From NCBI GenBank assembly GCA_943788235.1, contig CALSPM010000001.1, positions 1 through 64,000 on the forward strand: a DNA stretch of 64,000 nt, given 5' to 3'. Shown here in pieces: positions 5,924 through 25,364 of the stretch. The translations under genes were made by a program, and so were the position numbers. Numbering within the stretch: the stretch's first letter is position 1; every line of letters starts with the position of its first letter. The stretch is from an uncultured Cyclobacteriaceae bacterium (GTDB lineage Bacteria; Bacteroidota; Bacteroidia; Cytophagales; Cyclobacteriaceae). The notes beneath the pieces were generated by a model. It did no database searches. It was given only the letters and a program-made list of their open reading frames with translations, and was not told where the DNA came from.

Positions 5924-7399
5924 ATGCAAAAAGTTAACATAATTGGTTCTGGCTTTTCTTCTTTGTCTGCTGCGTGCTATTTGGCCAAGGCCGGATTTGA
6001 GGTAGATGTATTTGAAAAAAACACATCAATAGGAGGAAGAGCTCGAAAGATGGTCAAAGAAGGATTTACTTTTGATATGGGCCCTAGCTGGTATTGGATG
6101 CCTGATGTTTTTGACAAGTTTTTTCAAGATTTTGGAAATAAAACCTCAGATTTCTATGAATTGAAACGCCTAGCCCCGGCCTATCGGGTTTATTTTGAAG
6201 ATGGTACCTCAATAGATATTCCAGATTCATTAGAAGAAATTTTCAAAATATTTGAAAAAGAAGAAGTGGGAGCGGGTCACCTTTTAGCTAAATTTCTTGA
6301 AGATGCGGGCCATAATTATCGCATAGCTATTGAGAAATTGGTTTATAAACCAGGTATTTCTCCGCTTGAACTCGTGACCTTTGAAACTGTCAAGAAGCTA
6401 GATCAGTTTGTGGTGACCATTAGCCATCAAATAAGGAAACGTTTCAAGAATCCAAAGCTCATCAAAATTTTGGAATTCCCTGTGTTATTTTTGGGAGCTA
6501 AACCTCAAAATACGCCAGCCTTTTATAATTTCATGAATCATGCAGATTTCGTTTTGGGTACTTGGTATCCCATTGGAGGGATGTACAAAGTAGTGGAGGC
6601 CATGGAAACGTTGGCTTTATCATTGGGTGTGAAAATACATACAGGAAGTAATGTAGAAAAAATAGCTACAGAAAATGGTGTCGCAAATGGCCTAGTGATT
6701 GATGGAGTATGGACGCCCTCGGATATTGTGCTGAGTGGGGCAGATTATCATCACACAGAAACGTTATTGCCTAGTCATCTAAGATCTTACAAAGAATCTT
6801 ATTGGGAGAAAAAAACATTTGCTCCGTCCTCACTATTGTTTTATGTCGGTTTTGATAAAAAACTGACTGGTATACTGCATCACATGTTGTTTTTTGATAC
6901 TGATTTTGAAGCCCATGCCAGTGAAATATATGACGATCCTAAATGGCCGAAGGCTCCTTTATTTTATGCCAGTTTTACGAGTCTGACGGATCCTTCAGTA
7001 GCTCCCGAGGGTAGAGAAAGTGGTTTTTTCCTCGTTCCTTTGGCACCTGACTTAGAAGATTCTGAAATCTTACGAGAAAAGTATTTTGATATAATACTCG
7101 CACGATTAGAAAAGCACACTAAGCAATCCATCAAAGCATTCATTTCCTTTAAGGAGTCCTATTGTCTCAATGATTTTAAGGAGGATTATAATTCTTATAA
7201 AGGAAATGCCTACGGATTGGCCAATACCTTATTCCAGACGGCATTTTTAAGGCCGAAAATAATGAGTAAAAAAGTAAAAAATTTATATTTTACTGGACAA
7301 CTAACCGTCCCAGGACCCGGCGTACCCCCTTCTTTGATTTCTGGTAAAATTGCGGCGGAGCTGATCTCTCAAAACACCAGTAAACAAGTATTAACATGA
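5924..7399 (+). CDS. crtI: phytoene desaturase
   Basis: FAD-dependent desaturase that introduces double bases into phytoene to give lycopene, membrane-associated. The N-terminus has the dinucleotide-binding fold (IIGSGFSSLSAACYLAKAG, residues about 5-23, then FEKN) followed by GGRARK. The C-terminus carries the CrtI signature around LYFTGQLTVPGPGVPPSLISG. The 491 residues match the family. It heads the carotenoid operon; its stop overlaps the crtB start (7396-7399). The class as a phytoene desaturase rather than a later carotenoid oxidase is supported by adjacency to crtB and the cyclase. Confidence 0.95.
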   Translation: MQKVNIIGSGFSSLSAACYLAKAGFEVDVFEKNTSIGGRARKMVKEGFTFDMGPSWYWMPDVFDKFFQDFGNKTSDFYELKRLAPAYRVYFEDGTSIDIPDSLEEIFKIFEKEEVGAGHLLAKFLEDAGHNYRIAIEKLVYKPGISPLELVTFETVKKLDQFVVTISHQIRKRFKNPKLIKILEFPVLFLGAKPQNTPAFYNFMNHADFVLGTWYPIGGMYKVVEAMETLALSLGVKIHTGSNVEKIATENGVANGLVIDGVWTPSDIVLSGADYHHTETLLPSHLRSYKESYWEKKTFAPSSLLFYVGFDKKLTGILHHMLFFDTDFEAHASEIYDDPKWPKAPLFYASFTSLTDPSVAPEGRESGFFLVPLAPDLEDSEILREKYFDIILARLEKHTKQSIKAFISFKESYCLNDFKEDYNSYKGNAYGLANTLFQTAFLRPKIMSKKVKNLYFTGQLTVPGPGVPPSLISGKIAAELISQNTSKQVLT

Positions 7400-8234
7400 C
7401 GTTGTTATACGATGATCTGACCCAGGCGTGTAGCAAAGAAGTAACCCTAAAATACAGTACTTCCTTTTATAAGGCTGTAAACCTATTGTCTCCGACCATT
7501 CAACAAGACATTCATAATATTTATGGGTTTGTGAGATTTGCAGATGAAATTGTAGATACCTTTCATGAGCACAATCAAGAGGAATTACTTAAGCAATTTG
7601 AAGAAGATTTTTATGCGGCACTTAAGTAGGAATTAGTTTAAATCCTATTCTCAATTCCTTTCAAAAAACGATACTTAAATATGACATTGACATATCCTTA
7701 GTCGATGCTTTTATGCGAAGTATGAAAATGGATCTTTATAAATCGCAATATAGTACCCAGGAGGAGTATAAGCAATACATATATGGATCTGCTGATGTGG
7801 TCGGCTTGATGTGTCTTAAAGTTTTTGTCGAAGGTGATCAGAGCTTGTATGAATCACTAAAAGAAAGTGCCATGCGGTTGGGTTCAGCTTTTCAAAAAGT
7901 AAATTTCCTAAGAGATATTAAAAATGATCTAGATGTGTTAAATCGCTCTTATTTTCCCCAAGTGGACTTGGAGAACTTAGATGAACCATCTAAAGACGTT
8001 ATTATCAAAGAAATACAGGAAGATTTTCAGGCAGCGAAAATCGGAATTGCACAGTTGCCTTTAGTTGCTAAATTAGGGGTCTATACCGCTTATTCATATT
8101 ATTTCGAGCTTTTGATAAAGTTGAAAAAAACACCGTCATCAAGACTTTTGGAAACTAGAATAAGAGTGAATAATTTTATGAAATCTTATTTATTTTTTAA
8201 ATCTTATGTAAAAGTTAAATTTAATTTCGTTTGA
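7396..8234 (+). CDS. crtB: phytoene synthase, frameshifted
   Basis: Condenses two geranylgeranyl diphosphates into phytoene, the first committed carotenoid step. The first 77 codons carry the first Asp-rich motif region (GFVRFADEIVDTF). An in-frame TAG then appears at 7627-7629, while the frame one base back continues without interruption as GISLNPILNSFQ, through FMRSMKMDLY, to the second Asp-rich motif NFLRDIKNDLD and the end at 8234. A single missing base around 7620-7627 explains this. The joined protein would have about 279 residues, normal for CrtB. It overlaps crtI by 4 bases and the next gene by 4. Because all other pathway genes look intact, a sequencing indel is as likely as a true loss of pigmentation. 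Confidence 0.88.
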
Positions 8235-8731
8235 AACTCATTTTTATTTGGCTCATATTAACTCCATTGAGTATTCCTGAGTTGAGTATCAGGCCGAAAT
8301 TTCATAGTCAAGAAATTACGCAGGCTTATTTAGATGCATTACAATCAGATGCACAATGGAATTTAAATCCTTTGGTCATGGCTTATGTAGGAGTCTCGGA
8401 GACCATGTTAGCAGAAAATGTTTTTTGGCCTAGAGAAAAATGGAATTATTTCAATAGTGGTAAAGAAAAAATTGAAAAGGCGATTCATCAAAACAAAAAC
8501 AATCCAGAATTACGATACCTCCGTCTGCTAGTTCAACTCAATGCACCTAGCTTTTTAAGCTATGATGAAAGTATTGAAACAGACTTAGAATTTTATATCA
8601 GTAATATTTTGAATTCAGGACTAAATATGACTTGGATTAAAAAATTTTGTGATAATTTATTAGATGGGAAACATCTTTCTAATTTACAACATAGTCGGTT
8701 GAATGCTTTTTTACTTGACTTAAATGATTAA
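8231..8731 (+). CDS. secreted protein of unknown function in the carotenoid operon
   Basis: No known domain recognised. The frame begins with a TTG at 8231 that overlaps the crtB stop (TTGA), so translation is probably coupled. The 166-residue product starts with a likely signal peptide (KLIFIWLILTPLSIP) and continues as a soluble, mostly helical chain (EKIEKAIHQNKNNPELRYLRLLVQLNAP), somewhat reminiscent of a TPR-type helix pair. It lies between crtB and crtZ in the same direction with no gap, which suggests a role tied to pigment production or its membrane context. I recall similar small proteins in other Bacteroidota carotenoid clusters, but function is unknown. Confidence 0.72.
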   Translation: MKLIFIWLILTPLSIPELSIRPKFHSQEITQAYLDALQSDAQWNLNPLVMAYVGVSETMLAENVFWPREKWNYFNSGKEKIEKAIHQNKNNPELRYLRLLVQLNAPSFLSYDESIETDLEFYISNILNSGLNMTWIKKFCDNLLDGKHLSNLQHSRLNAFLLDLND

Positions 8732-8760
8732 TTTTGAATAGATAAATCAAATTGGTCTCG

Positions 8761-9213
8761 ATGAACATCATTGCTTTTGTAAGTACTTTCTTTTTTATGG
8801 AATTCGTAGCTTGGTTTGCCCATAAATATATCATGCATGGCCTATTTTGGAATCTTCATGAAGACCATCATACCAGAGAAAATGAGGCATATATTTTTGA
8901 ACGAAATGATAGTTTCTTTTTGATTTTTGCCACCCCAAGTATGCTCTGTATCATATTAGGTTCCCATTTCTCTTTTTTTTATCTTATGGCTATTGGCTTT
9001 GGTATCGCGGCTTATGGTATTTGTTATTTTTTGGTGCATGACATCTTTATACATCAAAGAATTAAAATTTTCACCAGATCAAATAATGCTTATTTACGTG
9101 CCATACGTAAAGCTCATAAAATACATCATAAGAAGCGGTCGAAGGAGGAAGGTGAGTGCTTTGGGATGTTACTAGTTCCGCTAAAGTATTTCAAATCAGA
9201 GTGGAGCAAATGA
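8761..9213 (+). CDS. crtZ: beta-carotene hydroxylase (sterol desaturase fold)
   Basis: Membrane di-iron hydroxylase that adds 3-OH groups to beta-ionone rings, giving zeaxanthin. The 150-residue protein has the family histidine clusters: HKYIMH (H21, H26), HEDHH (H33, H36, H37), HDIFIH (H93, H98) and HKIHH (H119, H122, H123), interleaved with hydrophobic helices. The ATG at 8761 is preferred over the upstream TTG at 8752, since the family begins right at the first helix. Its stop overlaps the start of the lycopene cyclase (ATGA at 9210-9213). Confidence 0.93.
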   Translation: MNIIAFVSTFFFMEFVAWFAHKYIMHGLFWNLHEDHHTRENEAYIFERNDSFFLIFATPSMLCIILGSHFSFFYLMAIGFGIAAYGICYFLVHDIFIHQRIKIFTRSNNAYLRAIRKAHKIHHKKRSKEEGECFGMLLVPLKYFKSEWSK

Positions 9214-9914
9214 GGCATTATTTATATTTGATAATAGATATTGCAACTATTTTTGTTCCTTTTTTTTTTAGTTTTCATCCTCGTATAAAATTTCATAAGA
9301 AATTGAAAGCTTTTTTCCCTGCGATGGTCGTCAGTGGGTGTGCTTACCTCAGCTGGGATATTTATTTTACTGTTCAAGGAATCTGGGGTTTTAATCCAGA
9401 TTATCTCATGGCGCTGCTTGTTTGGCATTTACCTATTGAAGAAGTGCTCTTCTTTGTATGTATCCCTTTTGCTTGTGTTTTTTCTCATTATACATTGATA
9501 GCGATCGCTCCCCAGGGGGGATTGTCTAGAGGTATGACTAATCTGATCAGTGCTTTTTTAGCTCTGATTTTAATTCTGATGGTGGTATTATCTTTTGATA
9601 AAACCTACACTGCTTTCAATGCTTTTTTTACATTGACCATATTGGTAGTCACTTTTGTATCAAAACCTATATTGTTGAGAAGGTTTTACATCGCTTGGGG
9701 CCTACTTATGTTGCCCTTTTTAATGGTCAACGGTGTGCTTACGGGTAGTTTAATTGATGCACCCATCGTGTGGTACAATAATGCTGAGAATTTAGGTATC
9801 CGAATCCTTACCATTCCAGTAGAGGATGTATTCTACGGCATGGGCTTGGTTTTACTGAATATCTTATTAACCGAAGCCTTTTTACCTAAAGCCTTAAAGT
9901 ATAGAGCTCGTTAA
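9210..9914 (+). CDS. lycopene beta-cyclase, CrtYcd-type membrane protein
   Basis: Heterodimer-type lycopene cyclase fused as one chain (CrtYc plus CrtYd), as in many Bacteroidota; it closes the beta-ionone rings of lycopene. About 234 residues with six to seven hydrophobic helices. The two repeats each carry the conserved acidic site, WHLPIEEVLFF in the first half and ILTIPVEDVFYG in the second. The ATG at 9210 overlaps the crtZ stop and is preferred to longer upstream readings that run inside crtZ. The 3' end overlaps by 4 bases the end of the photolyase gene on the other strand, so the two operons converge here. Confidence 0.93.
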   Translation: MRHYLYLIIDIATIFVPFFFSFHPRIKFHKKLKAFFPAMVVSGCAYLSWDIYFTVQGIWGFNPDYLMALLVWHLPIEEVLFFVCIPFACVFSHYTLIAIAPQGGLSRGMTNLISAFLALILILMVVLSFDKTYTAFNAFFTLTILVVTFVSKPILLRRFYIAWGLLMLPFLMVNGVLTGSLIDAPIVWYNNAENLGIRILTIPVEDVFYGMGLVLLNILLTEAFLPKALKYRAR

Positions 9915-11200
9915 TCTTGATGCGATGCAAGGCCTATTTTATAGGTACTCAAGGCTCTTTCACGTGCCAATTTATGATCAACCATTGGGGGGACATAGTC
10001 AAAGGAATCTAATTCAGGGATCCATTTTTTGACATAAATTCCTTTACCATCGAATTTTTGTTGTTGAGAAGTTGGATTAAATACCCTAAAATAAGGGGTA
10101 GCATCACAGCCCGTACCTGCCGACCATTGCCAGTTGCCGTTATTAGAAGAAAGCTCATAATCTAAAAGTTTTTGAGCAAAATAGGCTTCTCCCCAACGCC
10201 AATCAATGAGTAAATGCTTACAAAGGAAACTTGCAGTGACCATGCGCACGCGATTATGCATATATCCCGTGGCGTTCAATTGTCTCATACCCGCATCAAC
10301 CATAGGATAACCTGTCTTACCTGTACACCATTTTTCAAATTCCTCTTGATCATTTCTCCAAACGATACTATTGTATTTCACCTTAAAGTTTTCAGTGACT
10401 ACTCTTGGAAAATGGTAGATTATTTGCATGAAAAATTCGCGCCAGATCAATTCGCTTAAAAAAACCGCATCCATGTCTTTAAGCGTACCGATTATTTCCC
10501 GGATACTAACACTCCCAAATCTCAAATGTGGACTCAGATAGCTCGTATTGTCTGTGCTGGGTAAGTCTCTACTTTTGATGTATTCGCTCAGTGATGAGAG
10601 ATCATAGGGCTTTACCTTTATGGTGGCAACTTTGAAATTCATACTACTCAAAGCGGGTACAACTTGCTTTTGTTTATAGAGGGCTTTGAGGTCTGAAGCT
10701 TCAGATGTTAACATTTCTTTGCTGAAATGAGAAAGCCATTTATTTTTGTAGGGAGTAAAAACAGTATAAGGTTTGCCATCTGCCTTTAAAACTTCATTTT
10801 CTTCAAAAATGACCTGATCCTTGAAGGTATGTAAGACAATACCATTTTCTGAGAGTAATGCGGCAATTTCTTGATCTCTTTTTCGTGCATAGGGTTCATA
10901 GTCTTTATTAATGAACACGGACGAAATGTCGTAACTCTCTATCAAAGACTTCCAAACGTTAACTGGATTACCAAACATACATTGTACCCCACTTTCAAAT
11001 GGATGAAGGCTTGAGTTGATATCTGTTAATAAATCATGAATAAAGCCTAATCGGGCATCTTGTTCTGGTAAGTCACTCAAGATATCTTGATCAAAAATAA
11101 AAATAGGAAGTACTTCATGGCCTGATTTTAAAGCTGCCCGAAGTGCGGTATTGTCATCAAGGCGCAGGTCTCTTCGGAACCAAAAAATAGCAATTTTCAT
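9911..11200 (-). CDS. deoxyribodipyrimidine photolyase (class I type)
   Basis: Blue-light flavoenzyme that splits cyclobutane pyrimidine dimers. The 429 residues show the complete two-domain architecture: N-terminal alpha/beta antenna domain (IFWFRRDLRLDDNTAL, then PIFIFD) and C-terminal FAD domain with YLSPHLRFGSVSIRE, ELIWREFFMQI, WCTGKTGYPMVDAGMRQL, GYMHNRVRM and the DYELSSNNGNWQWSAGTG block. Start ATG is immediately before the end of the SDR gene (11201), so the genes form one minus-strand operon. CPD rather than 6-4 specificity is inferred from overall pattern only. Confidence 0.93.
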   Translation of the reverse strand: MKIAIFWFRRDLRLDDNTALRAALKSGHEVLPIFIFDQDILSDLPEQDARLGFIHDLLTDINSSLHPFESGVQCMFGNPVNVWKSLIESYDISSVFINKDYEPYARKRDQEIAALLSENGIVLHTFKDQVIFEENEVLKADGKPYTVFTPYKNKWLSHFSKEMLTSEASDLKALYKQKQVVPALSSMNFKVATIKVKPYDLSSLSEYIKSRDLPSTDNTSYLSPHLRFGSVSIREIIGTLKDMDAVFLSELIWREFFMQIIYHFPRVVTENFKVKYNSIVWRNDQEEFEKWCTGKTGYPMVDAGMRQLNATGYMHNRVRMVTASFLCKHLLIDWRWGEAYFAQKLLDYELSSNNGNWQWSAGTGCDATPYFRVFNPTSQQQKFDGKGIYVKKWIPELDSFDYVPPMVDHKLARERALSTYKIGLASHQD

Positions 11201-12616
11201 TTATTTTGTAAGGTTATTTAACATGCCTATAAAGATAAAACCATGAAAGGGAAAAACAGCATACCAGTAAAGTCGACCCCAAACACCTTTGGGTCTGAAA
11301 GTAGCCGTTTGCTCCAAATAGGTTCCTTTAACTTTGAATTCTAACCAAGCTTCCCCGGGGAGTTTCATTTCAGCAAATAACAATAATCTACCTTCTTTTT
11401 TGTCCGCATACAAAACACGCCAAAAATCTATGGCATCTCCGACATGGAGCGTGTCTTCTTGCGTTCTACCTCTACGCAGTCCAACCCCTCCAAATAGTTT
11501 ATCTATAAACCCCCGTAGCTTCCATAGGCCATTAGCATAATACCAGCCTCTCTGACCTCCAATACGCCAAATACGATCAACACATTCTTGCTTATTTGAG
11601 ATTTGATGTGATCTTTGATCTTGAAAACACCCAAAGACGGGTACTTTAAGAAATTCTGAGATATTGAGATTAAATGCACTGCTGATTAGGGAATCTTTCC
11701 AGCTAGATACAATTCGATTTTCTACAATTTCTGATAACGTTCTTTTGAGGGCCTCTTGATAATTTATGGGTTCAATATTTATAATTTTCAGTAATTCAAG
11801 ATCTCTACATATCACCTCAACTTTCATACTGCTGACTAGAGCAGAAGCCAGTTTATAAGAGGTGGAAGTAACAAAATAGAGCCAATAAGAGGATAATTTT
11901 GGGGTCATTATGGGTACCGTAAAGATGAATCGTTTCAAGTTTCGAGCCTTTGCAAACCCTAGAAGTATTTCTTTATAGGTCATTACTGCCGGACCTCCAA
12001 TATCGAAATTTTGATCATAGGTTTTCTCATTCCCTAAGGTTTTGACAAGACAATCTAGGACATTGTCAACTCCTATAGGCTGACATTTAGTATTGAGCCA
12101 TTTAGGTGTAATCATGAGGGGTAATTTTTCGACCAAATCACGAATGATCTCAAAAGAAGCACTGCCCGATCCAATAATGATACCTGCGCGTAATGTGGTC
12201 AAAGGATAAGAACCCAGTCCTAATTCATGCTCGACAGCACGTCGAGATGATAAATGTGCTGACAATGAGTCCTCATTGGTTATGCCACTGAGGTAAACTA
12301 CGTGTCGCACATCTTTGCCCTTCATAATTTTACGAAAATGAAGAGCAGATTGTTTTTCTAATTTTTCATAATCACGGGTATTAGACATGGAATGCATCAG
12401 ATAATAAGCACCCTCAATGTCTTGTGGTATTTTTTCTAGAGATTTGAAATCCAAAAAATCAGCTTCAATGACTTCTATCTTATCTAAAATGGAAGCGGGT
12501 GCTGAAAATCTATTTTTATCTCGAACGGTACAAACTATGTGATGGCCATGGTATATTAATTCGAGGAGTAGTCTTTTTCCTATGTAGCCTGTCGCTCCTG
12601 TTAGTAATATTTTCAT
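11201..12616 (-). CDS. NAD(P)-binding SDR protein with C-terminal DUF2867
   Basis: An atypical short-chain dehydrogenase. Residues about 1-290 are an NmrA-like Rossmann fold (TGATGYIGKRLL at 7-18, then YLMHSM, YLSGI). The last 150 residues match DUF2867, an SRPBCC-like domain (WRIGGQRGWYYANGLWKLRG, GRLLLFAEMKLPGEAWLEF). Substrate unknown. Proteins of this architecture recur beside photolyase and carotenoid genes in Bacteroidota. The gene abuts the photolyase gene directly, and the glutathione peroxidase gene lies 10 bases upstream, so co-expression under light stress is likely. Confidence 0.85.
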   Translation of the reverse strand: MKILLTGATGYIGKRLLLELIYHGHHIVCTVRDKNRFSAPASILDKIEVIEADFLDFKSLEKIPQDIEGAYYLMHSMSNTRDYEKLEKQSALHFRKIMKGKDVRHVVYLSGITNEDSLSAHLSSRRAVEHELGLGSYPLTTLRAGIIIGSGSASFEIIRDLVEKLPLMITPKWLNTKCQPIGVDNVLDCLVKTLGNEKTYDQNFDIGGPAVMTYKEILLGFAKARNLKRFIFTVPIMTPKLSSYWLYFVTSTSYKLASALVSSMKVEVICRDLELLKIINIEPINYQEALKRTLSEIVENRIVSSWKDSLISSAFNLNISEFLKVPVFGCFQDQRSHQISNKQECVDRIWRIGGQRGWYYANGLWKLRGFIDKLFGGVGLRRGRTQEDTLHVGDAIDFWRVLYADKKEGRLLLFAEMKLPGEAWLEFKVKGTYLEQTATFRPKGVWGRLYWYAVFPFHGFIFIGMLNNLTK

Positions 12617-12626
12617 GCGGCAAATA

Positions 12627-13154
12627 TCAAACTTTCTTCTTTCTTAAGATAAGCTTTTTTATGTCTTTCTCAAGGGCATTGGGTGGCGTATAAGGTCCGT
12701 ATCTACGAAAGGGTATTCCTTCATTGGAGATTAAAAACTTGGTAAAATTCCACTTGATTCGACTTCCAAATAACTCAGATATTTCATTCTTTAAGTATTT
12801 AAATACAGGATGTGCATTGGGGCCATTTACTTTTATTTTTGACATCAATTGAAAGGTGACTCCGTATTTTAAAAGGCAGGAAGTTTCCATTGTCTCATTC
12901 GATTCAGGTTCTTGAGACATGAATTGATTACAAGGAAAGCCCAAGATTACGAGCCCCTTGGATTGATATTTATGATGTAACTTCTCAAGCTGTTTAAATT
13001 GAGGTGCCAAACCACAACGTGTTGCTGTGTTTACAATCAACACTGTTTTATCATTAAATTGATCAAATGAAACCTCATCTCCAGTAGCATTTTCTGCCTT
13101 CAATTCATAAAATTCCGGCTTGGGTTGCCTAGGAGCAAATTTGGCAGTAATCAT
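12627..13154 (-). CDS. glutathione peroxidase family protein (cysteine type)
   Basis: Thiol peroxidase that reduces H2O2 and lipid hydroperoxides, in this group usually with thioredoxin rather than glutathione. The 175 residues contain the peroxidatic Cys47 in NTATRCGLAPQF, the GFPCNQF motif and the catalytic Trp-Asn in IKWNFTKFL. The selenocysteine position is a plain Cys codon. The protein lacks a signal peptide and should be cytosolic. It lies 3 bases downstream of the ABC1-kinase gene and fits an oxidative-stress role in the light island. Confidence 0.92.
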   Translation of the reverse strand: MITAKFAPRQPKPEFYELKAENATGDEVSFDQFNDKTVLIVNTATRCGLAPQFKQLEKLHHKYQSKGLVILGFPCNQFMSQEPESNETMETSCLLKYGVTFQLMSKIKVNGPNAHPVFKYLKNEISELFGSRIKWNFTKFLISNEGIPFRRYGPYTPPNALEKDIKKLILRKKKV

Positions 13155-13157
13155 TGT

Positions 13158-15137: not shown

Positions 15138-15147
15138 GTGGTTAAAT

Positions 15148-15618: not shown

Positions 15619-15832
15619 ATTTATTTTTAGATAAGTAAGTACTATATTTTTTTTGTGACCTAAAGGCAATACCTATTTTTCTATATTAAACGAATGAAGC
15701 ATAACATTCAAACATAAAATTCTGCTAATTTGTTCACAGAAGGGCTGAATGTAAGAATTATTTTAGTTTTGAACTAAAATTTATTTTTTTCAGTTATTAA
15801 TTCAGCATTTAATTTTTCTTTCGTAACATATT
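15619..15832. promoter_or_regulatory. divergent promoter region of SRPBCC operon and MerR/B12 regulator
   Basis: A 214-base spacer between head-to-head genes. It holds a perfect 9-bp inverted repeat with a 3-base spacer (see 15760-15780) and a second imperfect one pairing TAACATTCA (15702-15710) with TGAATGTAA (15746-15754) across 35 bases. In CarH/LitR systems the regulator represses its own divergent promoter in the dark, so this spacer is the natural operator site. Confidence 0.6.
15760..15780. promoter_or_regulatory. candidate operator palindrome of the MerR/B12 regulator
   Basis: Perfect 9-bp arms ATTTTAGTT and AACTAAAAT separated by TTG, located about 52 bases before the regulator start codon. 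Size and symmetry fit a MerR-type dimer site. The half TTGAACTAAAA recurs in front of the aromatic amino acid hydroxylase gene (18426-18436, other strand) and TTTTAGTT in front of crtI (5881-5888). Binding is inferred. Confidence 0.5.
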
Positions 15833-17701: not shown

Positions 17702-18409
17702 TTAGATTCGATCAGATACCTGCTGAATGAGCTGTACGAGTTGGGCCAAGGAATCAAAAATATAATATTTTCCTTGGAAGCTGTGTCGGTCATAAGAAGC
17801 GCCGCTGATTAGCGCCTGAGTGGAAAAAGAGATTTGATTTTTAGGATCAAATGCTATTTTTACCTCTGAAGAAGAATAAAAAGTAGCTCCAAAAGCCTTA
17901 ATTCCTGATGATTCCCTTATCAGTCCCAACTCAATGAGCATACCTCCAATAAAATCAAGTTCTATTAGTAAATCCGAACGATCTTCCTCCATGGCACGTA
18001 TATACGTTCTAGCCAACAATTGATACATATCTGAGTAGCTTTTTTCAGCTAAAAAAGGGATATGTCCCATGACGTCGTGCCAGATATCCGGTTCGTCGCA
18101 ATAGTTGAGTTCATCAGGTCTTCGCACAAATTGGGTCAACGGCATTTGGTAATTACTAATCATGGTATACCATGATTTTTGATCGAGTATGACATTTTCA
18201 TTTGTTTGTACAAAAGTGTAGCCCGTATAAGGTTTTAAAGCTAGGGTTAATTGTTCGGCTTGGGGTCGTTTATTTTGATTTAAGCCCAGTTTTGAGAATC
18301 CAGAAATCCAAAGGGTTGAGATGGCATTTAAAGATTGTAAATTTTGAAAATGGATTTCAAATAATTGTTTCCAGTGGTTATCATCATGAGCTAAATCAAA
18401 GGTACGCAT
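17702..18409 (-). CDS. biopterin-dependent aromatic amino acid hydroxylase (phenylalanine 4-monooxygenase type)
   Basis: Non-haem iron enzyme that hydroxylates phenylalanine (or another aromatic amino acid) with O2 and tetrahydropterin. The 235 residues carry the iron site PDIWHDVMGHIP (H111 and H116) and the third ligand Glu160 in LIELGLI, followed by KAFGATFYSSS. The protein is the bacterial single-domain form without a regulatory domain, though a little short. No pterin recycling gene is nearby. An aromatic amino acid decarboxylase lies far away at 41-42 kb. Substrate choice (Phe versus Trp or Tyr) cannot be fixed from sequence by eye. Confidence 0.9.
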   Translation of the reverse strand: MRTFDLAHDDNHWKQLFEIHFQNLQSLNAISTLWISGFSKLGLNQNKRPQAEQLTLALKPYTGYTFVQTNENVILDQKSWYTMISNYQMPLTQFVRRPDELNYCDEPDIWHDVMGHIPFLAEKSYSDMYQLLARTYIRAMEEDRSDLLIELDFIGGMLIELGLIRESSGIKAFGATFYSSSEVKIAFDPKNQISFSTQALISGASYDRHSFQGKYYIFDSLAQLVQLIQQVSDRI

Positions 18410-18523: not shown

Positions 18524-20002
18524 CTAATAATATAATATAGTTTGGATGGCTCGCGCCGGAATGGATGAGGCTATTTTATGTGTTCCAACGTACATATTAT
18601 AATCTATTTTGACGGTGCTATCGTTCATGATTATGGTCGCATATGAATCATCCGGATTGACGAAAGTAGTCGCTTGGAGAAAGCTTCTGCTACTGACTGT
18701 ACTGACTCTTTTGGCACCTGGACGGATATATTTTGAAAAATGTCCAATATAATAATAAGTCGGTGTCAAAATAAGCTCATCTGTGTCTGTATCACCGTGG
18801 ATAGGTGCAAAACAAAAGTTAGCCACATGATTGGGACCACCATTTTGATCTAAGAGGATATTCCAATCGGTCCAGCCTGCTGTCCCTTGGTTAAAATCGT
18901 TGATCATAGAGTTACCGTAGCGCTCAGCATTTGGCCAAAACTGATATTTATTGACGTCGAAACTTTCATTGCAACCTTCGGTGAATATCAATTCCTTATC
19001 GGGAAATGATTCCTTAACCTTTCCTAAATTCTCAAATTTAGCATCACTTCCGGTCCAGGTTTCATACCAATGGAATCCGGTACCCCACGCATATTTTGCA
19101 GCCTCTGGATCTCCTAATATTGTATTGGCTCGATTGGTAATGAGATCTCTGTTGTGATCCCAAACGATAATGTTTTTATCCCCTAATCCTTCTTTAGCTA
19201 AAATGGGGCCTAAGTAGTTTTTCAAAAAATCTCTTTCTTCTTGTGCAGTGTAAATGCATGATTCCCAACGCTGGGTAGCCATAGGTTCATTTTGTATGGT
19301 TAGACCCCAAATGGGAATGTCAAGTGCCTCATAGGCTTTGATAAATTTGGCATAGTAATGTGCCCAAGATTCGTAAAATTCGGGTAGTAATCGACCTCCT
19401 TGAAGCATACTTCCATTAGTCTTCATAAACGCTGGAGGACTCCAAGGACTTACATAAGTCAACAAAGCACCGCCTGCTTTGGTAATGGCTTTTTTAATCA
19501 GAGGTATCCGATAGGTCAAGTCTGGTGTGATGTCAAATGTTTTCAGGTCTGCATCACCTTCTTCTATATAAGTGTATGATTGCTCACTAAAGTCACAACT
19601 GTGAATCGTTGTCCTCAAGAGGCTATATTTGATCCCGTTTTGTCCATAATAGGCTTCTAATAAGAGCTCTTGTTTTTCAGTAGACAATTTTGCGAAAACT
19701 TCAGCCGAAGCGTCAGTTATAGCGCCTCCGATGCCTATCATCGTTTGAAAGGTTTTTTCAGGATTTATAAAAATGGATAATTCTGTTTCTAAGGGTTGCT
19801 TGCCTTCTTTGAAATCTAATTCAGCAGTTTTTTGCAACTTTAGATCTGTATCTTTTGCTGTAGTGTAGATAAGGGCAGAGGAGGGAACATATCGTCCAGT
19901 ATCAGGTATATTTCTTTCAGTCATTGGAGCATTATTTGAGGTACAAGCAAAACAAAGACCAATCGTAAAAACGAAATATAATTTTTCAGCACTCAAATTC
20001 AT
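18524..20002 (-). CDS. glycoside hydrolase family 30 lipoprotein (glucosylceramidase-like)
   Basis: Secreted beta-glycosidase with lipoprotein signal (IGLCFAC, Cys20). The (beta/alpha)8 GH30 domain has acid/base E239 in LTIQNEPMA and nucleophile E342 in LIFTEGC, plus GGAITDASA near the N-terminus and SPWSPPAFMKT. A C-terminal beta-sandwich (about 420-492) closes the protein. GH30 includes glucosylceramidases and beta-1,6-glucanases; in Bacteroidota, beta-1,6-glucanases of this family act on laminarin side chains, which would fit the GH16 gene at 2.9 kb. It stands alone between light-island genes. Confidence 0.92.
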   Translation of the reverse strand: MNLSAEKLYFVFTIGLCFACTSNNAPMTERNIPDTGRYVPSSALIYTTAKDTDLKLQKTAELDFKEGKQPLETELSIFINPEKTFQTMIGIGGAITDASAEVFAKLSTEKQELLLEAYYGQNGIKYSLLRTTIHSCDFSEQSYTYIEEGDADLKTFDITPDLTYRIPLIKKAITKAGGALLTYVSPWSPPAFMKTNGSMLQGGRLLPEFYESWAHYYAKFIKAYEALDIPIWGLTIQNEPMATQRWESCIYTAQEERDFLKNYLGPILAKEGLGDKNIIVWDHNRDLITNRANTILGDPEAAKYAWGTGFHWYETWTGSDAKFENLGKVKESFPDKELIFTEGCNESFDVNKYQFWPNAERYGNSMINDFNQGTAGWTDWNILLDQNGGPNHVANFCFAPIHGDTDTDELILTPTYYYIGHFSKYIRPGAKRVSTVSSRSFLQATTFVNPDDSYATIIMNDSTVKIDYNMYVGTHKIASSIPARAIQTILYY

Positions 20003-20101
20003 ATATTAATATAATGAATGGGATTTTATTAAAAAATGAAAGAAATATAAGTTAAACTATTTTCCGCGCAAAAGTTACCGTTAAAAAAAATTAATTCCTG
20101 A

Positions 20102-21586
20102 TTATTTATTTAATTGGATTAAAAAGTGATCTGCGGTTGTATGCAATTCGTTTTTTCTCTCATCTGTCATTTTATCAAAAGTTTTTATAAGTAGACCTAA
20201 TCGTGGATTTTTAATAAAAAACATGCGATGAACATCCATAAATCTCCAGAATAAGGCATCCCAGATCGGCTGCCAATCTCCTTTGGGATAATCACTCATC
20301 TTCATTAAATAATTAGATCCACTGATGTAGGGTTTGGTTGCGAATAGGCCCCCATCTGCAAATTGGCTCATGCCATAAACATTTGGAACCATGACCCAAT
20401 CATAGGCATCTATAAATAATTCCATAAACCACCGATATACCTCGTCTGGATCAAATTCACAAAGTACCATGAAATTCCCCAAGACCATCAGCCGCTCAAT
20501 ATGATGACAATAACCTGTTTTTAATATTTTATGAATGGTTTGATCGATGGGGTATATGCCGGTAGTACCATTATAAAAGCTTGAGGGTATTTTTCGTTTG
20601 AACCCCCAATAATTAGTAGATCGAGAAATAGAACCCTGGGAAATATACATGCCCCTTATAAATTCTCGCCAGCCCATTATTTGACGGACAAAGCCCTCTA
20701 ACGAATTTAACGGAATATCTACTTTTTTTGTATGAAGAAGCGCTGCATCAATGATGGATTTTGGTGAGATCAGTCCTGTGTTGAGCATCGGGGACATTAC
20801 ACTGTGATTCAAGAAGAGCTCATCTTTGACAATAGCATCTTCATAAGTACCAAACGCTTCGAATCGATGTTTAAAAAAATCTTCTAACCATGTTTGAGTA
20901 GCAGGCCCATCAATCGGATACAAAGGTTTTGACGTAAGATTGCCGGGATTCTTCGAATAATGCGTTTCAATATAAGTCAAGGCTTCACTCCAAAAGGAAT
21001 TATTTAGGGGACTTTTAATGGTTGGTGGAAGCTTATTTTTAGGATATTTTTTCCTGTTTTCATCATCATAACTCCATTTTCCACCGATGGGCTGATCTGC
21101 TGCATCTACTAAAATATGTTGTTTGATTCTAGATTGCTTATAAAAAGAAGTTTGAAAATACTTTTTTTTATTAGGGCTAAAGAAGTCCCCAAGATCTGAA
21201 CGAGTATTGATAAAAATAGAATTCTCGTAGAAGGTAAGTTTGATTTTTTGCTTTTGTGCAGCTTGTTTTATTCTTTTTTCTAACCAATAATCAGTAGGGT
21301 CAACAAGATAGATGAGCTCTATTTTTTCGATAGAGAGCAGGCCCAGTAAATGTCCTAAATCTGATCTTTGATCACCTATTTCTATGTAATGCACCGTGAG
21401 GCCTCTAGATTCCAAGAGGCTGGCGTGTGCTTTCATGGTAGCTCGGTGATAGGCCAACTTCATTTTATGAAATTTATATTGTGAAAAGAACAAGGGCTCT
21501 TCGATCATATAAATATCATATCCATTCTCGTACAAGACATGTGTTTGAAAAAGTTGATTGGGAAATATAATGTTAATTCCTTTCAT
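20102..21586 (-). CDS. photolyase-related protein of the FeS-BCP / prokaryotic 6-4 type, cluster cysteines missing
   Basis: Belongs to the photolyase-related (PhrB-like) family whose characterised members repair (6-4) photoproducts with FAD, a ribolumazine antenna and a 4Fe-4S cluster. The 494 residues show the N-terminal alpha/beta domain ([20 protein letters not shown]), then [30 protein letters not shown] and [12 protein letters not shown]. In the C-terminal part, where cluster-bearing relatives have CxxC and CPF motifs, the chain instead reads [20 protein letters not shown]. The start overlaps the DUF2256 gene by 14 bases. Last gene of a seven-gene operon. Family is firm; activity without cluster is open. 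Confidence 0.9.
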
Positions 21587-21716
21587 TTTTTTGGCTTCTG
21601 CAACGTTTGCTACAATAAATTACTTGGTCCCATGTAAGTCGCCATTTTTTTCGCCAGTTAAAGGGGCGTCCACAGACAGAACATATTTTATGAGGTAAAT
21701 TTTGTTTTTTTATCAT
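21573..21716 (-). CDS. DUF2256 small zinc-ribbon-like protein
   Basis: A 47-residue protein read from the ATG at 21716-21714. It has the DUF2256 pattern [16 protein letters not shown] followed by [11 protein letters not shown], that is CxxC then CxxxC, a likely zinc ribbon. It overlaps the end of the flavin reductase gene by 29 bases and the start of the photolyase-related gene by 14, a sign of strict translational coupling. DUF2256 genes are known neighbours of cryptochrome/photolyase genes in many bacteria; function unknown. Confidence 0.93.
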
Positions 21717-22344
21717 TAAACTCAGGGGTTTTTTCCGCACGAGCATAAGGGAACTCGCCTACTTTTTTGACTGCATAGTAGGCATTCAGTCCAGAGATAC
21801 CAACACTGTCCGCAACACCTAAGTCAATATATCCTTCTTCACTCAGAGAGATTTCAGGAATGATTAAATGTAAGATTCTCCCAACTACCATGAGGGTATT
21901 ACTGGATTTTATGGGGACACTTTCTTCGTGGATTAAGCCCATTTTCAATTTACTTTCTTTGACAAAAGGTGCTGTGAATTCTTTATGGTACTCTTCGGTA
22001 AATCCACATTTCTGAAATTCAGAAACATTTTTTTCAAATTTAGCTGAGGTATAATGTGCTTGTTCAATGAAATCAGAGGGAATATGATTGATGGTGAATT
22101 GCTTATTTTCTGAAATGTTTTCGTGGGTATGCCTGCGTACATTTTGATCTGGTCGTAAAATGAATCCAAGATAGGGAGGGTTACTGCCTAGATGCACGAC
22201 GGAGCTGATGATGGCTAAATTCGTTTGATTATTTTTATCTTTGGTGCCAATTAAGTTACCTGGCTTGATACCTGAGACTGAATTAATGATATTCAATCTT
22301 TTGATATGAGGCATTTTTTTAATGCTAGATTCTGATAAATACAT
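21688..22344 (-). CDS. flavin reductase family protein (FMN-binding split barrel)
   Basis: Flavin-binding oxidoreductase of the FlaRed/split-barrel type. The 218 residues show the family core [22 protein letters not shown] and [10 protein letters not shown], plus HTHENI and FTINHI. It may supply reduced flavin or keep the cryptochrome FAD reduced, which is inferred from its position between photolyase genes. It lies 6 bases downstream of the photolyase gene and overlaps DUF2256. The first ATG is taken as start. Confidence 0.88.
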
Positions 22345-22350
22345 ATTTAT

Positions 22351-23814
22351 TTATTGTTTTCTGACATGTGTTTTTAAAATTCTTTGACTTTCTTTTTTTA
22401 CTTTTTTGCCTTTCCGGTGGCCCCAAATCTTTTCTCGAGCTATTTTTCCACTTTCCTCCAAATTTACGATTGGAAAGGGATAGTCAGCGCCCATTTCAAT
22501 ACCACAACAAGATTGATCAAAATGATTCATTTTATAAGGTTCATGGATAAAGGGCGTGGGTACATTAACGAGTTCAGGTACCCACTTTTTAATAAATATC
22601 CCCTCAGGATCATGTTCGTAAGACTGTTTTACAGGGTTATAAATCCGGACTGTATTAATACCGGTCGTACCTGCTTGCATTTGAAATTGTGGATAATGAA
22701 TGCCTGGTTCATAGTCAAGGAATAATTGTGCGAGATGATAGACGCCAGTTCTCCAATCTTGGTCTAGATGATGACATAACAAGGATACCAACATGGCACG
22801 CATACGAAAATTGATCCACCCCGTGGTATGAAGACACCTCATACAGGCATCTACCAATGGAAAACCGGTACGTCCCGATTGCCATGCCAGTAGATGGTTA
22901 TTGTTTTCAACTCTTATTAGGGATTCGTAGCCCCTGTTGATACATAAAGTCTCGTAGTCACATTCTACTTCAAATTTTTGAATGAAATGACAATGCCATT
23001 TGAGGCGTGTCATGAGACCCCCAAAAGCACGTTTATGTTTTTCAAAGTTTGTGTGATCAGAGACATGATGCATCGCCTGTTTGACGCTCAAATTACCCCA
23101 TGATAAGTAGGGAGAGATTCTTCCACAAGACTTTCTACTTTCAAGGGGTTTAGAGATCATTTTATGATAATTTTTACCCCGATCATTGGTAAATGAGATC
23201 AAGTATTTCCAAGCCTGCGTCTCACCAGCGGCTTGTAAATGCGGAGTAACTTCAATAAATGTTGATTCTAAAGTGGGTGGTAAGGAAAACGGGTGATTGA
23301 AGGGTGGTTGGTCGTTTTGAGTGAATATATTTTTGATGGGTGGAATGGCAATATCCTTGAGCCACACGTGATCCCAATTTTTCCGATTGTTCATCCCTCT
23401 TATGACTCCACCTTTTTGAAATTGATGCCAATAAACTTTGTTTTTTTTTAAAATTCCCATCACTTTTTGATCTCTGTCCCAAGTCAGTTTGATACCTGAT
23501 TCTTGATAGGAAAAGACTGATTTTAAATCAAAATGATTGAGCAGAAATTCAAAAAAAAGAGTCGCTTCGGTATAAAAAATTTGTATGGATCGATTGAAAA
23601 CTTGGAGAGTTTTATTGGCATCGGCCAACGAGTGGTATATAAATTGATGATGTCTTAATGAACTATCGGGATAAGCGAGTAAAGAAGGCTCAAATAAATA
23701 AACAATGAGATAGGGAAGCTGCGCTTGCTCTGCAGCTTCAAGTGCTGCATGATCTTGTGTTCGGATATCTCTTTTCATCCAAACGAGGTTCACGACTTTT
23801 TTTTTCTCTTTCAC
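22351..23814 (-). CDS. cryptochrome/photolyase family protein
   Basis: A 487-residue, full-length member of the cryptochrome/photolyase superfamily. N-terminal alpha/beta domain (NLVWMKRDIRTQDHAAL, PYLIVYLFEPSLL) and FAD domain (GRISPYLSWGNLSVKQA, GRTGFPLVDACMRCL, GWINFRMRAMLVSLLCHHL, DYEPGIHYPQFQMQAG). It departs from the class I photolyase at 9.9 kb in the active-site block (QAGTTGINTVRIYNP in place of the usual SSNNGNWQW), which argues for a distinct subfamily. A basic C-terminal tail (HRKGKKVKKE) follows. It overlaps the upstream FAD-domain gene by 4 bases. Repair versus signalling is not decidable by eye. Confidence 0.9.
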   Translation of the reverse strand: MKEKKKVVNLVWMKRDIRTQDHAALEAAEQAQLPYLIVYLFEPSLLAYPDSSLRHHQFIYHSLADANKTLQVFNRSIQIFYTEATLFFEFLLNHFDLKSVFSYQESGIKLTWDRDQKVMGILKKNKVYWHQFQKGGVIRGMNNRKNWDHVWLKDIAIPPIKNIFTQNDQPPFNHPFSLPPTLESTFIEVTPHLQAAGETQAWKYLISFTNDRGKNYHKMISKPLESRKSCGRISPYLSWGNLSVKQAMHHVSDHTNFEKHKRAFGGLMTRLKWHCHFIQKFEVECDYETLCINRGYESLIRVENNNHLLAWQSGRTGFPLVDACMRCLHTTGWINFRMRAMLVSLLCHHLDQDWRTGVYHLAQLFLDYEPGIHYPQFQMQAGTTGINTVRIYNPVKQSYEHDPEGIFIKKWVPELVNVPTPFIHEPYKMNHFDQSCCGIEMGADYPFPIVNLEESGKIAREKIWGHRKGKKVKKESQRILKTHVRKQ

Positions 23815-24899
23815 AAATATTTCTTACATTTCTTCCAGAAAGCAAAAAAAGAGGGGAAATAGCCCTGCACATCAAACATCCAATCTCTGACATCTTCAGT
23901 ACCTACATAATGCACATTTAGGGGATGCTCTTTATAAATAATCTCATGATTTGGATAGCTTTTACTTAAGGCCTCAAAGGATCCGACAAATACTTGTAAA
24001 TTTTTAATATTTACCCCCAAGGCTTGCATGAATTGAAAATTTTTTGGCGCAATCGGATATTGTTCGAAAATTTTAGGTTCTAATAAAAGAACACGGTTAT
24101 AATCACCTTCTTGGCGCCAATTTGGATCTAGATTATAATAGTTATAAACAAGAATAGGCTCACTCGGTGTCATGACCAATGTTTGAGATACTGGCAGTTC
24201 TGTATTGAGTAGAGGCAACGTCGTTGGGACTAAAGCGGTGGGGCAGGGACGATTGACTAAAACATCATAATCTAAGTCTAAGAAGGTATTGTGTTGATTA
24301 GTATAAAAAAACTTATTAATGTTCTCTTGATTTGCATAATATTTTTTTGACGCATTACTACCCGCTACCCATTGCCAGCTCAAGGCATTGCTCGCCCAGT
24401 CTCCGTCCAATAAATGATAATACATCCATCGCGAGGGGGTCAACCAATGACTTTTGCCCACATTACAAATAACAGCGGCTACGTACATGCGCATGTGATT
24501 GTGCATGTAGCCTGTTTCTTCCAATCCTTTAATTGCGCTATCTATGGCTTCGATGCTTGATGACTTTGTCAATATAGCCGTGGGCATTTCATAATGTTGA
24601 ACCTCTTGTTGTTGACTTTTCAAGTCCGTATTTATTTCAGATTTTTTATGAATCCAAACTTGTTGCCAATAATCACGCCAAGCCAATTCTTGGATATATT
24701 TTTCAATAGTTTCAAAGGGATAGTTCTCTTCTAACAAATAGTTAAAAACTTTCTTCGTAGAAATTACACCTCTTGAAATGTAAGGAGATAAGTAAGTGAC
24801 GGCCCCATCAACGTAATTTCTTGTATGACTATACCTTTCAGGATCTACAGATTTTAGGCGCTGGTATATGTCGTTAAGCCGAGTGGGGAAAGAGATCAT
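23811..24899 (-). CDS. cryptochrome-like FAD-domain protein with apparently permuted domain order
   Basis: A 362-residue protein that starts directly with the photolyase FAD domain (residues about 1-225: YLSPYISRGVISTKKV, ELAWRDYWQQVW, ETGYMHNHMRMYVAAVI, DWASNALSWQWVAGS) and has no N-terminal antenna domain. The last 130 residues instead look like an alpha/beta fold similar to that missing domain (PILVYNYYNLDPNW, NRVLLLEP, QVFVGSFEAL), ending in a basic tail. The FPT motif two residues after the ATG fits other family members, so this start is preferred although the frame is open further upstream. It sits 13 bases after DUF2805 and overlaps the next gene. Confidence 0.88.
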   Translation of the reverse strand: MISFPTRLNDIYQRLKSVDPERYSHTRNYVDGAVTYLSPYISRGVISTKKVFNYLLEENYPFETIEKYIQELAWRDYWQQVWIHKKSEINTDLKSQQQEVQHYEMPTAILTKSSSIEAIDSAIKGLEETGYMHNHMRMYVAAVICNVGKSHWLTPSRWMYYHLLDGDWASNALSWQWVAGSNASKKYYANQENINKFFYTNQHNTFLDLDYDVLVNRPCPTALVPTTLPLLNTELPVSQTLVMTPSEPILVYNYYNLDPNWRQEGDYNRVLLLEPKIFEQYPIAPKNFQFMQALGVNIKNLQVFVGSFEALSKSYPNHEIIYKEHPLNVHYVGTEDVRDWMFDVQGYFPSFFAFWKKCKKYL

Positions 24900-24912
24900 T
24901 TGACTTCCTGAT

Positions 24913-25197
24913 TTATCGTTTTGATATTTTATTATTTGAGATAGATCTTTGACGCGTGCATTTAAATCTCTGTATTTTAGAATTTCTTTTTTTGCTGTGT
25001 TTTTGGCTAGTACCCTGGTGTACCCGCGCCCTCCACAAATTGAAGCTAGATCTTTTCAGTCGCTTCCGCATGAGCGCAATGACCCCGTTTTCTGGAAGGG
25101 AAAACTGATAATTGATAGCTTCGAAAGGAGTGCGATCCTCCCAAGCCATTTCAATAATTCTATTCTCCTGGTTTGTAGAAAAAGAAGGATTTGTCAT
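24913..25197 (-). CDS. DUF2805 / TIGR03643 family protein
   Basis: Small conserved protein, 94 residues. Family core RIIEMAWEDRTPFEAINYQF followed by SLPENGVIALMRKRLKRSSF and LWRARV; the C-terminus RFKCTRQRSISNNKISKR also looks like other family members as I remember them. The middle part resembles a helix-turn-helix (FEAINYQFSLPENGVIALM), so DNA binding is a reasonable guess. The start overlaps the stop of the Lacal_2735 gene (ATGA). Function unknown; often next to photolyase genes. Confidence 0.9.
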   Translation of the reverse strand: MTNPSFSTNQENRIIEMAWEDRTPFEAINYQFSLPENGVIALMRKRLKRSSFNLWRARVHQGTSQKHSKKRNSKIQRFKCTRQRSISNNKISKR

Positions 25198-25364
25198 TTG
25201 CCTTCAGCAGCTTTAATTTTATTAAGAATTTCTTCCGCTTCAGCGTATTTTTGATCACTCAGCGAACGATTTATTTTTGAAAGTTGGTGGGCATTCTTCA
25301 AAAGTTGTTCGTGTTTCTTATACAAATTTTGGAGAGGTGAAGTCTTTTTGAAAATATTTAACAT
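25194..25364 (-). CDS. Lacal_2735 family small protein
   Basis: A 56-residue coding region, start ATG at 25364-25362. Sequence features: N-terminal NIFKKTSPLQNLYKKHEQLL and then KINRSLSDQKYAEAEEI, a helical pair typical of the Lacal_2735 family of Bacteroidota. The stop overlaps the DUF2805 start by 4 bases, which makes it the first gene of the photolyase operon. Function unknown; no signal peptide or membrane segment. Confidence 0.88.
   Translation of the reverse strand: MLNIFKKTSPLQNLYKKHEQLLKNAHQLSKINRSLSDQKYAEAEEILNKIKAAEGK

Follow-up and report, generated by a model that had tools for sequence, protein, structure and literature searches.

Sequence patterns suggest a two-step light-response cascade, from a B12-type MerR regulator to a SigR-like sigma factor, in a Cyclobacteriaceae bacterium

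Introduction

Photoreceptor regulators of CarH/LitR class I, which use adenosylcobalamin (AdoB12), are known from Thermus, Myxococcus, and Streptomyces, and the B12 contacts of CarH are marked by the sequence signatures Wx9EH and ExHxxG. Light sigma factors are also known, namely LitS of the Streptomyces LitR-LitS system and CarQ of Myxococcus, and actinobacteria possess the sigma/anti-sigma pair SigR-RsrA. Here we examine a 19-kb island of carotenoid (crt), photolyase, and associated genes (positions 5924-25364) that surrounds merR, the gene for a CarH-like MerR/B12 regulator, in DNA from an uncultured Cyclobacteriaceae bacterium. The 64,000-nucleotide stretch analyzed, hereafter the window, opens contig C1 of a 3.25-Mb genome. 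Within the named collection, it is most closely related to marine Flammeovirgaceae/Cyclobacteriaceae assemblies and one 'Marinoscillum' assembly.

The regulator resembles CarH/LitR class I proteins in its MerR DNA-binding domain, in its probable B12 domains with both contact signatures, and in the crt genes nearby. It differs by having Asn at the His132 position and in its candidate operator, TTGTYTAA-N16-TTARACAA, with flavobacteria showing up to four half-sites in arrays of 26-bp period. As in the LitS and CarQ systems, light would act via an extracytoplasmic function (ECF) sigma factor, and merR of Cytophagales is often followed by an ECF gene. However, the relevant sigma gene in the window's genus is SigH-like and unlinked to merR. 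The proteins encoded there score best against sigma and anti-sigma models of the SigH/SigR type known from actinobacteria, and the promoter likewise has the form GGAAY-N18-GTT, as far as the available portions of two reports describe it (PMC4803200, PMC5483222). In contrast to the actinobacterial arrangement, a candidate site for B12-MerR lies upstream of the sigma gene, light-protection genes lie behind the promoters, and the model scores fall below their cut-offs.

According to the accessible part of one study, the Pseudomonas LitR light regulon holds photolyase, short-chain dehydrogenase/reductase (SDR), folE, and cryB genes (PMC9758184). The class II LitR proteins PplR and PmlR of Pseudomonas putida and P. 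mendocina thus offer a likeness, in that homologues of FolE, SDR, and phr1 share the candidate operator in flavobacteria, but these Pseudomonas regulators are described in that part of the study as LOV-coupled, with TGTACA-N12-TGTACA sites and a sigma70-like promoter (PMC9758184). Excerpts of two further reports indicate that carotenoid genes are light-induced in Chryseobacterium (PMC7064467) and that the blue-light response of V. cholerae involves a MerR protein and a ChrR-SigmaE pair (PMC5241685).

Results and Discussion

A proposed cascade from MerR to a sigma factor

We consider it rather probable, judging from the patterns described below, that merR and three neighboring gene runs form a regulon controlled by light (and probably also by redox state), in which, as a two-step cascade, a B12-MerR regulator governs a SigR-like sigma factor. 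In the dark, the B12-bound CarH-like protein would sit on TTGTYTAA-N16-TTARACAA upstream of the sigma gene and repress it. Light would break the B12 bond and end this repression, and the sigma factor would then transcribe four island units (about 19 genes) from [TG]GAAC-N18-GTT promoters. Induction of merR by the sigma factor would constitute negative feedback that resets the system, and thiol oxidation may feed in through an RsrA-like zinc anti-sigma protein encoded beside the sigma gene. Genes of the same kinds in marine flavobacteria have the candidate MerR operator immediately ahead of them.

The island genes fall into three runs with intergenic gaps of -59 to 20 bases. On the plus strand is crtI-crtB-unk166-crtZ-crtY. 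Divergent from merR (plus strand) is a minus-strand run of SRPBCC-TetR-ABC1-GPx-SDR/DUF2867-phr1, in which GPx denotes a glutathione-peroxidase family protein and the gaps between consecutive genes are 10, 0, 3, 10, and 0 bases. The last run, also on the minus strand, is DUF6435-DUF2805-NewPHL-like-Cry-flavin reductase-DUF2256-DPRP, whose third gene encodes a photolyase-like protein with its flavin adenine dinucleotide (FAD) domain first. Because the gaps are short, we infer that each run is one operon, and merR would be the fourth unit. Single genes for a CDP-alcohol phosphatidyltransferase, an aromatic amino acid hydroxylase, and a GH30 glycosidase lie between the runs, and the promoter evidence suggests no place for them in the regulon.

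A common promoter motif heads the four units

When upstream regions were compared within the genus by script, the pattern [TG]GAA[CT]-N18-GTT was present in 31 of the 32 regions belonging to the four units (Table 1). It begins 46-78 bases ahead of the frame, with the SRPBCC distance measured from a TTG at 15669 (counting from the internal ATG adds 51 bases). Spacings of 15-17 and 19-21 yielded only 3 matches in the 32 regions, all at merR with spacing 15. The motif is missing from all 29 upstream regions of five non-member genes, which are those for the phosphatidyltransferase (0/9, one region being only 113 bases long), the hydroxylase (0/4), the GH30 protein (0/4), a sugar transporter (0/6), and the window's own sigma factor (0/6). 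The whole 64-kb window has 13 matches to the pattern, versus 11, 5, 6, and 7 at spacings of 16, 17, 19, and 20. If GAAC is required, the four island sites are the sole intergenic ones apart from the transfer-messenger RNA gene.

Compared as sequence, the island motif is the published SigH promoter. The consensus GGAAYR-N17/18-GTT is given in the part of one report that was available (PMC4803200), and GGAA and GTT are named as the core elements for SigH of C. glutamicum in the corresponding part of another (PMC5483222). We had fixed the island motif before the sigma gene was identified and before this consensus was looked up. A cousin of the motif, AAC-N17-GTT[AT], is located no more than 150 bases upstream of merR (11/33), CruF (7/17), crtZ (5/16), IspH (5/13), DUF4286 (5/13), and the ECF gene (5/21) in 33 Cytophagales-type loci, compared with 15/428 for other genes of these loci. 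Pairs of AAC and GTT[AT] at some other spacings give 3-5 matches there upstream of ECF, merR, and crtI.

The promoter motif is also found elsewhere in the window's genome (G000), where 18 non-island sites match the pattern. Twelve of these were inspected, and a script placed 7 between genes and 5 inside frames. Genes for a DUF3050 protein, a DoxX-like protein, and a fatty acid hydroxylase (loci L197, L198, and L199) are preceded by the motif, as is a SigJ-like ECF gene followed by a fatty acid desaturase gene (L202, 1364-2837; motif 99 bp upstream). It is possible that these genes are further regulon members, or that the matches arose by chance.

A SigH-like sigma gene carries the candidate operator

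The sigma gene of the proposed cascade is on contig C3 of the same genome, with its start at about position 187055, and TTGTYTAA-N16-TTARACAA begins 103 bases upstream. Among the stretches of this genome selected for sigma genes or promoter matches, this is the one in which the operator was seen. The operator is present 89-106 bases upstream of this gene in 6/6 genus genomes with a readable upstream region, always at spacing 16 and with 0-1 mismatch; a seventh genus contig starts inside the sigma gene and hence falls outside the count. The best model for the sigma protein is TIGR02947 (SigH), and the small protein encoded after it resembles RsrA (TIGR03988). A short frame with the motif HxxxCxxC lies beside the sigma gene in 5/7 genus loci. 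The gene that bears the operator thus appears to encode a sigma factor of the kind known to use the promoter seen at the four island units.

Other candidates for these roles were tried and rejected. The ECF sigma gene in the window (405-989) has no motif in its upstream regions (0/6, as counted above), and the dedicated ECF sigma factor of Cytophagales (cluster c7) has best identities in the genus of only 32-36% in 7/8 genomes and 29% in the eighth. As a MerR operator, a perfect palindrome at 15760-15780 was set aside because its exact copies occur only at merR in 7 genus genomes and it overlaps the sigma-type promoter, and AACA-N16-TGTT upstream of merR was replaced by the oriented promoter motif.

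The candidate operator precedes homologous genes in flavobacteria

The 33 Cytophagales-type loci contain 27 copies of TTGTYTAA-N16-TTARACAA (spacing 16); the two halves pair 6 times at spacing 17, once at 12, and never at 13-15 or 18-20. Within 400 bases of merR are 23 of the sites (15/33 loci), nearly all of them between merR and the ECF gene. A different arrangement is seen in loci L081-L106, which are mostly from Flavobacteriaceae. There, alternating TGTC/GACA half-sites with 22 bases between them lie before merR in 18/26 loci. Windows with three half-sites number 34 at spacing 22 and 3 at spacing 23, with none at 20, 21, or 24; six of these windows (L081, L101) are labelled as lying beside a small spurious frame and belong to the same intergenic region. 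Exact three-half-site arrays lie at merR with one exception, in G186, in a search of 22 genomes from which the genome of L099 was left out. The half-sites recur every 26 bp, up to four to an array (L081-L105), a geometry that is unusual among operators of MerR-family proteins. Promoters of Bacteroidota have a -33/-7 consensus, and the half-sites of L081 overlap, as judged by eye, elements of this kind that face in the fasciclin/crt direction.

In the 22 genomes holding the closest MerR relatives, TTGTCTAA-N16-TTAGACAA occurs 43 times at no more than one mismatch, compared with 8 for the reversed pattern. By coordinates, 15 of the 43 were assigned to merR loci. All other 28 were inspected, with flanks annotated by blastp plus Pfam for ten proteins. 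Behind 17 of these 28 sites, in 8 genera, lie gene runs that include homologues of genes in the window, a count that rests on the stricter pattern rather than on 20 regions picked earlier by eye from listed matches. The runs include TetR-ABC1-(flavin reductase)-SDR/DUF2867-(DUF2805, FolE), SRPBCC-SDR-phr1, FolE-...-GPx-DUF6435-TspO-SRPBCC-phr1, and DUF6435-...-FAD-first photolyase-Cry-flavin reductase-DPRP. In L168, the first gene behind the site is of no recognised kind. If 1 in 100 intergenic sites qualified, the chance of at least 17 among 28 would be 2e-27, although this rate is assumed and the figure is overstated because the genomes are related. Four of the 28 sites precede genes that appear fasciclin-like by eye (L147, L150, L152, L155), and these may encode light-induced surface proteins in marine flavobacteria. 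We found no published account of TTGTYTAA-N16-TTARACAA as an operator or of a SigR relay in Bacteroidota, which is weak evidence given that the searches were mostly aimed elsewhere.

Evidence against the cascade and rival explanations

Several observations weigh against the proposed cascade. The operator was not found in the window itself at up to one mismatch and spacings of 14-18. Three-half-site arrays at one mismatch are not commoner than their reversed control in 22 genomes, and across 217 genomes of the class TTGTCTAA-N16-TTAGACAA has 23 sites versus 24 reversed, with 4 of the 23 directly after merR, ahead of an ECF gene (2) or crtI (2). Of the 28 sites inspected, 5 lie at a contig edge, in coding sequence, or by unrelated genes, and 2 lie by a gene for a secreted protein. 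Moreover, the related species in the site counts are not independent. A related form of the promoter pattern is not enriched genome-wide in G000 (22 sites versus 36 reversed), and therefore the four island sites are distinguished by position and conservation only. The stretch with the sigma gene was chosen because of that gene and not at random. Its protein matches TIGR02947 (9.1e-48, 162.5 bits) below the cut-off of 251.6, and the RsrA-like protein, at 43.2 bits, is below its cut-off of 62.5. The sigma gene stands beside genes that look by eye like gmk and nadD, and its product might be a general stress sigma factor. Alternatively, the SigJ-like ECF gene of L202 could encode the true sigma factor of the island.

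It is also conceivable, if unlikely in our view, that MerR binds the island promoters directly, in which case GAAC-N18-GTT would be the MerR operator of this genus and not a promoter read by a sigma factor. Two copies of the motif do flank merR, AAC and GTT are inverted copies of each other, and direct operators are the rule in flavobacteria. However, the motif is one-sided, with GAA[CT] fixed on one side versus only GTT on the other, and it is gene-directed in all four promoters. Furthermore, the operator of related MerR proteins differs in sequence and is present upstream of the genus sigma gene. The match of the promoter to the SigH consensus can be read in another way, particularly since GPx and the RsrA-like protein suggest redox control. 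The four units might form a SigR-type thiol/oxidative stress regulon of which merR is a mere member and in which light has no part. We regard this as improbable, because the MerR operator is found upstream of the sigma gene in every one of the six readable genus genomes and before the same gene families in flavobacteria, and because the gene content is one of carotenoids and photolyases.

The original prediction had gone further by treating the entire 19-kb island as one light regulon, and extending such a regulon to the phosphatidyltransferase, aromatic hydroxylase, and GH30 genes now appears highly improbable. These genes are adjacent to the others, and the phosphatidyltransferase gene is present in all 9 genus loci, but none of the 17 upstream sequences of the three genes contains the common promoter, and the hydroxylase and GH30 genes are each present in only half of the genus loci that reach that far. 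The narrower proposals, that a regulator of CarH/LitR type goes together with these genes and that the SRPBCC, DUF2867-SDR, and small proteins look like members of a light regulon, agree with the promoter common to the genus and with the operator before homologous operons in flavobacteria. With the cascade as the preferred reading, the regulator in the window's genus probably acts via a sigma factor encoded elsewhere and not directly on the island promoters.

Neighborhood conservation

We counted companions of merR, mostly within 10 kb, in 68 loci including the window; L034-L040 were left out because they are copies of L074-L080. The most common are crtB (51), crtI (50), crtZ (47), and crtY (38), followed by phr1 (22), SRPBCC (14), and SDR (13). 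GPx, ABC1, TetR, and the phosphatidyltransferase occur within 10 kb of merR in the window's genus only (9/68 loci each). The hydroxylase and GH30 clusters are each represented in 4/8 genus loci reaching that far, L075 ending earlier, and L078 has a hydroxylase-like match at 34%. All 9 genus loci have the same gene order from crtI to the phosphatidyltransferase, with a deviation in L041 (G006), where the SDR gene is missing and an additional gene lies ahead of the phosphatidyltransferase gene. Likewise, the DUF6435-to-DPRP block is kept wherever the contig extends, except in G006, which is without DPRP and DUF2256. This genus-wide conservation of gene order is more than chance. Behind merR, Cytophagales loci often have an ECF sigma gene (a cluster in 21 loci) and crtI-crtB, and in many marine flavobacteria a fasciclin gene (a 24-locus cluster, named by eye) and crt genes are divergent from merR. 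The clustering that had been expected across relatives therefore holds as gene order within the genus and is not widely conserved beyond it. Linkage is nonetheless conserved in another form, since homologues of genes clustered in the window's genus are scattered in flavobacteria and yet tied together by one operator site.

The MerR/B12 regulator

The merR protein aligns with the solved Thermus CarH (3whp, 5c8d) at about 2e-18 (phmmer). It matches PF13411, PF00376, and PF02607 above their cut-offs and PF02310 below. Against the NCBI CarH model NF052513 it scores 90 bits, far under the cut-off of 400, and so the regulator is CarH-like but not CarH by that model. Both Wx9EH and ExHxxG are present. 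Among 17 aligned regulators, Wx9EH and ExH occur in all, and the Gly of ExHxxG occurs in 14/17, being replaced by Ala or Ser in L063, L043, and L053. Where CarH has His132, which we take to be the light-state ligand, the window regulator has Asn directly after the Trp.

Relatives of the regulator (query L093, E up to 1e-20) are encoded in 130/217 genomes of the class. The window regulator is up to 50% identical to proteins of marine Flavobacteriaceae and, by another program, up to 43% identical to proteins from its own family that lie beyond the genus. Reichenbachiella, which is not a flavobacterium, has a regulator with 49% identity. This pattern of identities gives a hint of horizontal transfer.

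Implications for Bacteroidota

As a tentative extension, Bacteroidota might share a regulon of ancient origin that is run by a B12 photoreceptor through a single operator, TTGTYTAA-N16-TTARACAA, and has been rewired three ways. Control would be direct, through arrays of evenly spaced half-sites, in marine flavobacteria; through a dedicated ECF factor encoded by merR's neighbor in Cytophagales; and through capture of a thiol-stress sigma factor of SigR-RsrA type in the window's genus. If such capture is real, light and thiol oxidation would act jointly on genes for carotenoids, photolyases, and antioxidant functions, and a single bacterium would couple light sensing by B12 to a sigma factor of thiol stress. 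More generally, these patterns offer a code of operator and promoter that can be tested for light responses across Bacteroidota, one of the main bacterial groups of the sunlit ocean. The proposed light-protection regulon takes in the widespread but uncharacterized SRPBCC, TetR_C_23, ABC1, DUF2867-SDR, DUF2805, DUF2256, and DUF6435 families, to which flavobacteria add TspO, FolE, and fasciclins.

Gene content of the island

Pfam and NCBIfam support most island genes, including CrtI, CrtB, the lycopene cyclase, a photolyase of the cyclobutane pyrimidine dimer (CPD) type, SDR+DUF2867, ABC1, TetR_C_23, SRPBCC, the MerR+B12 domains, the CDP-alcohol phosphatidyltransferase, the aromatic-amino-acid hydroxylase, the DPRP photolyase, the flavin reductase, the cryptochrome/photolyase, the FAD-domain-first protein, DUF2805, DUF2256, and DUF6435 (the 'Lacal_2735' protein). 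The carotenoid operon, the four photolyase/cryptochrome proteins, and the CarH-like regulator recognized earlier at 5924-25364 are confirmed by these matches, whereas the protein once labelled a thiol peroxidase belongs to the glutathione-peroxidase family. The GH30 gene lies inside the island and had not been listed before.

Table 1. Genes and promoter motifs of the island, with window coordinates
Feature	Position	Strand	Basis or remark
crt operon promoter motif TGAAC-N18-GTT	5876..5901	+	8/9 genus upstream regions; ninth (L041) has CTT
crtI, phytoene desaturase	5924..7399	+	NF058655, 717.6 bits
crtB, phytoene synthase, frameshifted in this assembly	7396..8234	+	open reading frames 7396-7629 and 7713-8234
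unk166, 166-aa protein between crtB and crtZ	8231..8731	+	cluster in 16/68 loci
crtZ-like hydroxylase	8752..9213	+	His motifs read from sequence; shares cluster with 46 other loci
crtY, lycopene cyclase, CarR type	9156..9914	+	Pfam/NCBIfam
phr1, class I-type (CPD) DNA photolyase	9911..11200	-	final gene of SRPBCC run
SDR (NmrA-like) + DUF2867 protein	11201..12616	-	Pfam
GPx, glutathione-peroxidase family protein	12627..13154	-	Pfam/NCBIfam
ABC1/UbiB-like atypical kinase	13158..14480	-	Pfam/NCBIfam
TetR_C_23 regulator	14481..15137	-	Pfam
SRPBCC protein, head of six-gene run	15148..15618	-	start is internal ATG; open frame begins with TTG at 15669
SRPBCC-run promoter motif TGAAC-N18-GTT	15711..15736	-	9/9 genus sequences
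merR promoter motif TGAAC-N18-GTT	15770..15795	+	9/9 genus sequences, one with GAAT
merR, CarH-like MerR/B12 regulator	15833..16726	+	domains, alignment to solved CarH
CDP-alcohol phosphatidyltransferase, outside proposed regulon	16791..17558	-	Pfam
Aromatic amino acid hydroxylase, outside proposed regulon	17702..18409	-	Pfam/NCBIfam
GH30 glycosidase, outside proposed regulon	18524..20002	-	Pfam/NCBIfam
DPRP-family photolyase	20102..21586	-	Pfam; two Cys only
DUF2256 protein	21573..21746	-	family match
Flavin reductase-like protein	21688..22344	-	Pfam
Cry, cryptochrome/photolyase	22351..23814	-	Pfam/NCBIfam
Photolyase-like protein, FAD domain first (presumably NewPHL-like)	23811..24899	-	Pfam/NCBIfam
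DUF2805/TIGR03643 protein	24913..25197	-	Pfam/NCBIfam
DUF6435 ('Lacal_2735') protein, head of seven-gene run	25194..25364	-	family match
DUF6435-to-DPRP promoter motif GGAAC-N18-GTT	25393..25418	-	5/5 genus sequences

The FAD-first protein, which we take to be NewPHL-like, has FAD_binding_7 at residues 69-189 of 362, and 13 sequences, the window's included, align over the full length. At 1e-30 it has matches in 11/118 genomes of the phylum, counting the window's own. No solved relative spanning its second domain was found by sequence, and a predicted model (predicted local distance difference test score of 67) had no PDB match at 1e-3. Fe-S photolyases (FeS-BCP) have four cluster cysteines; the DPRP protein has only two Cys and would thus be without their iron-sulphur cluster. 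A Prochlorococcus member of the DPRP family likewise has no such cluster, according to the available part of a report that also describes the inverted phr7 photolyases (PMC9426592). With phr7 and NewPHL proteins the FAD-first protein shares, as judged from its sequence, an initial FAD domain and a short second domain.

The crtZ-like protein has no significant Pfam match, and its His motifs are presumably those of such hydroxylases. For unk166, no Pfam or NCBIfam match was found, and the portion of a report on Chryseobacterium lacus that was available includes a drawing of its crt cluster with a hypothetical gene at the matching position (PMC7064467). The true start of the lycopene cyclase is probably an ATG about 54 bases downstream of the annotated one.

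The crtB gene of the window is split by a single-base frameshift, and all 8 genus relatives (8/8) have an intact 279-aa frame. This is either an assembly error or the mark of a strain unable to make carotenoids. The sugar transporter gene adjoining crtI (4132-5674) is likewise split by a single-base frameshift relative to its relatives, and this second case favors assembly error for both genes.

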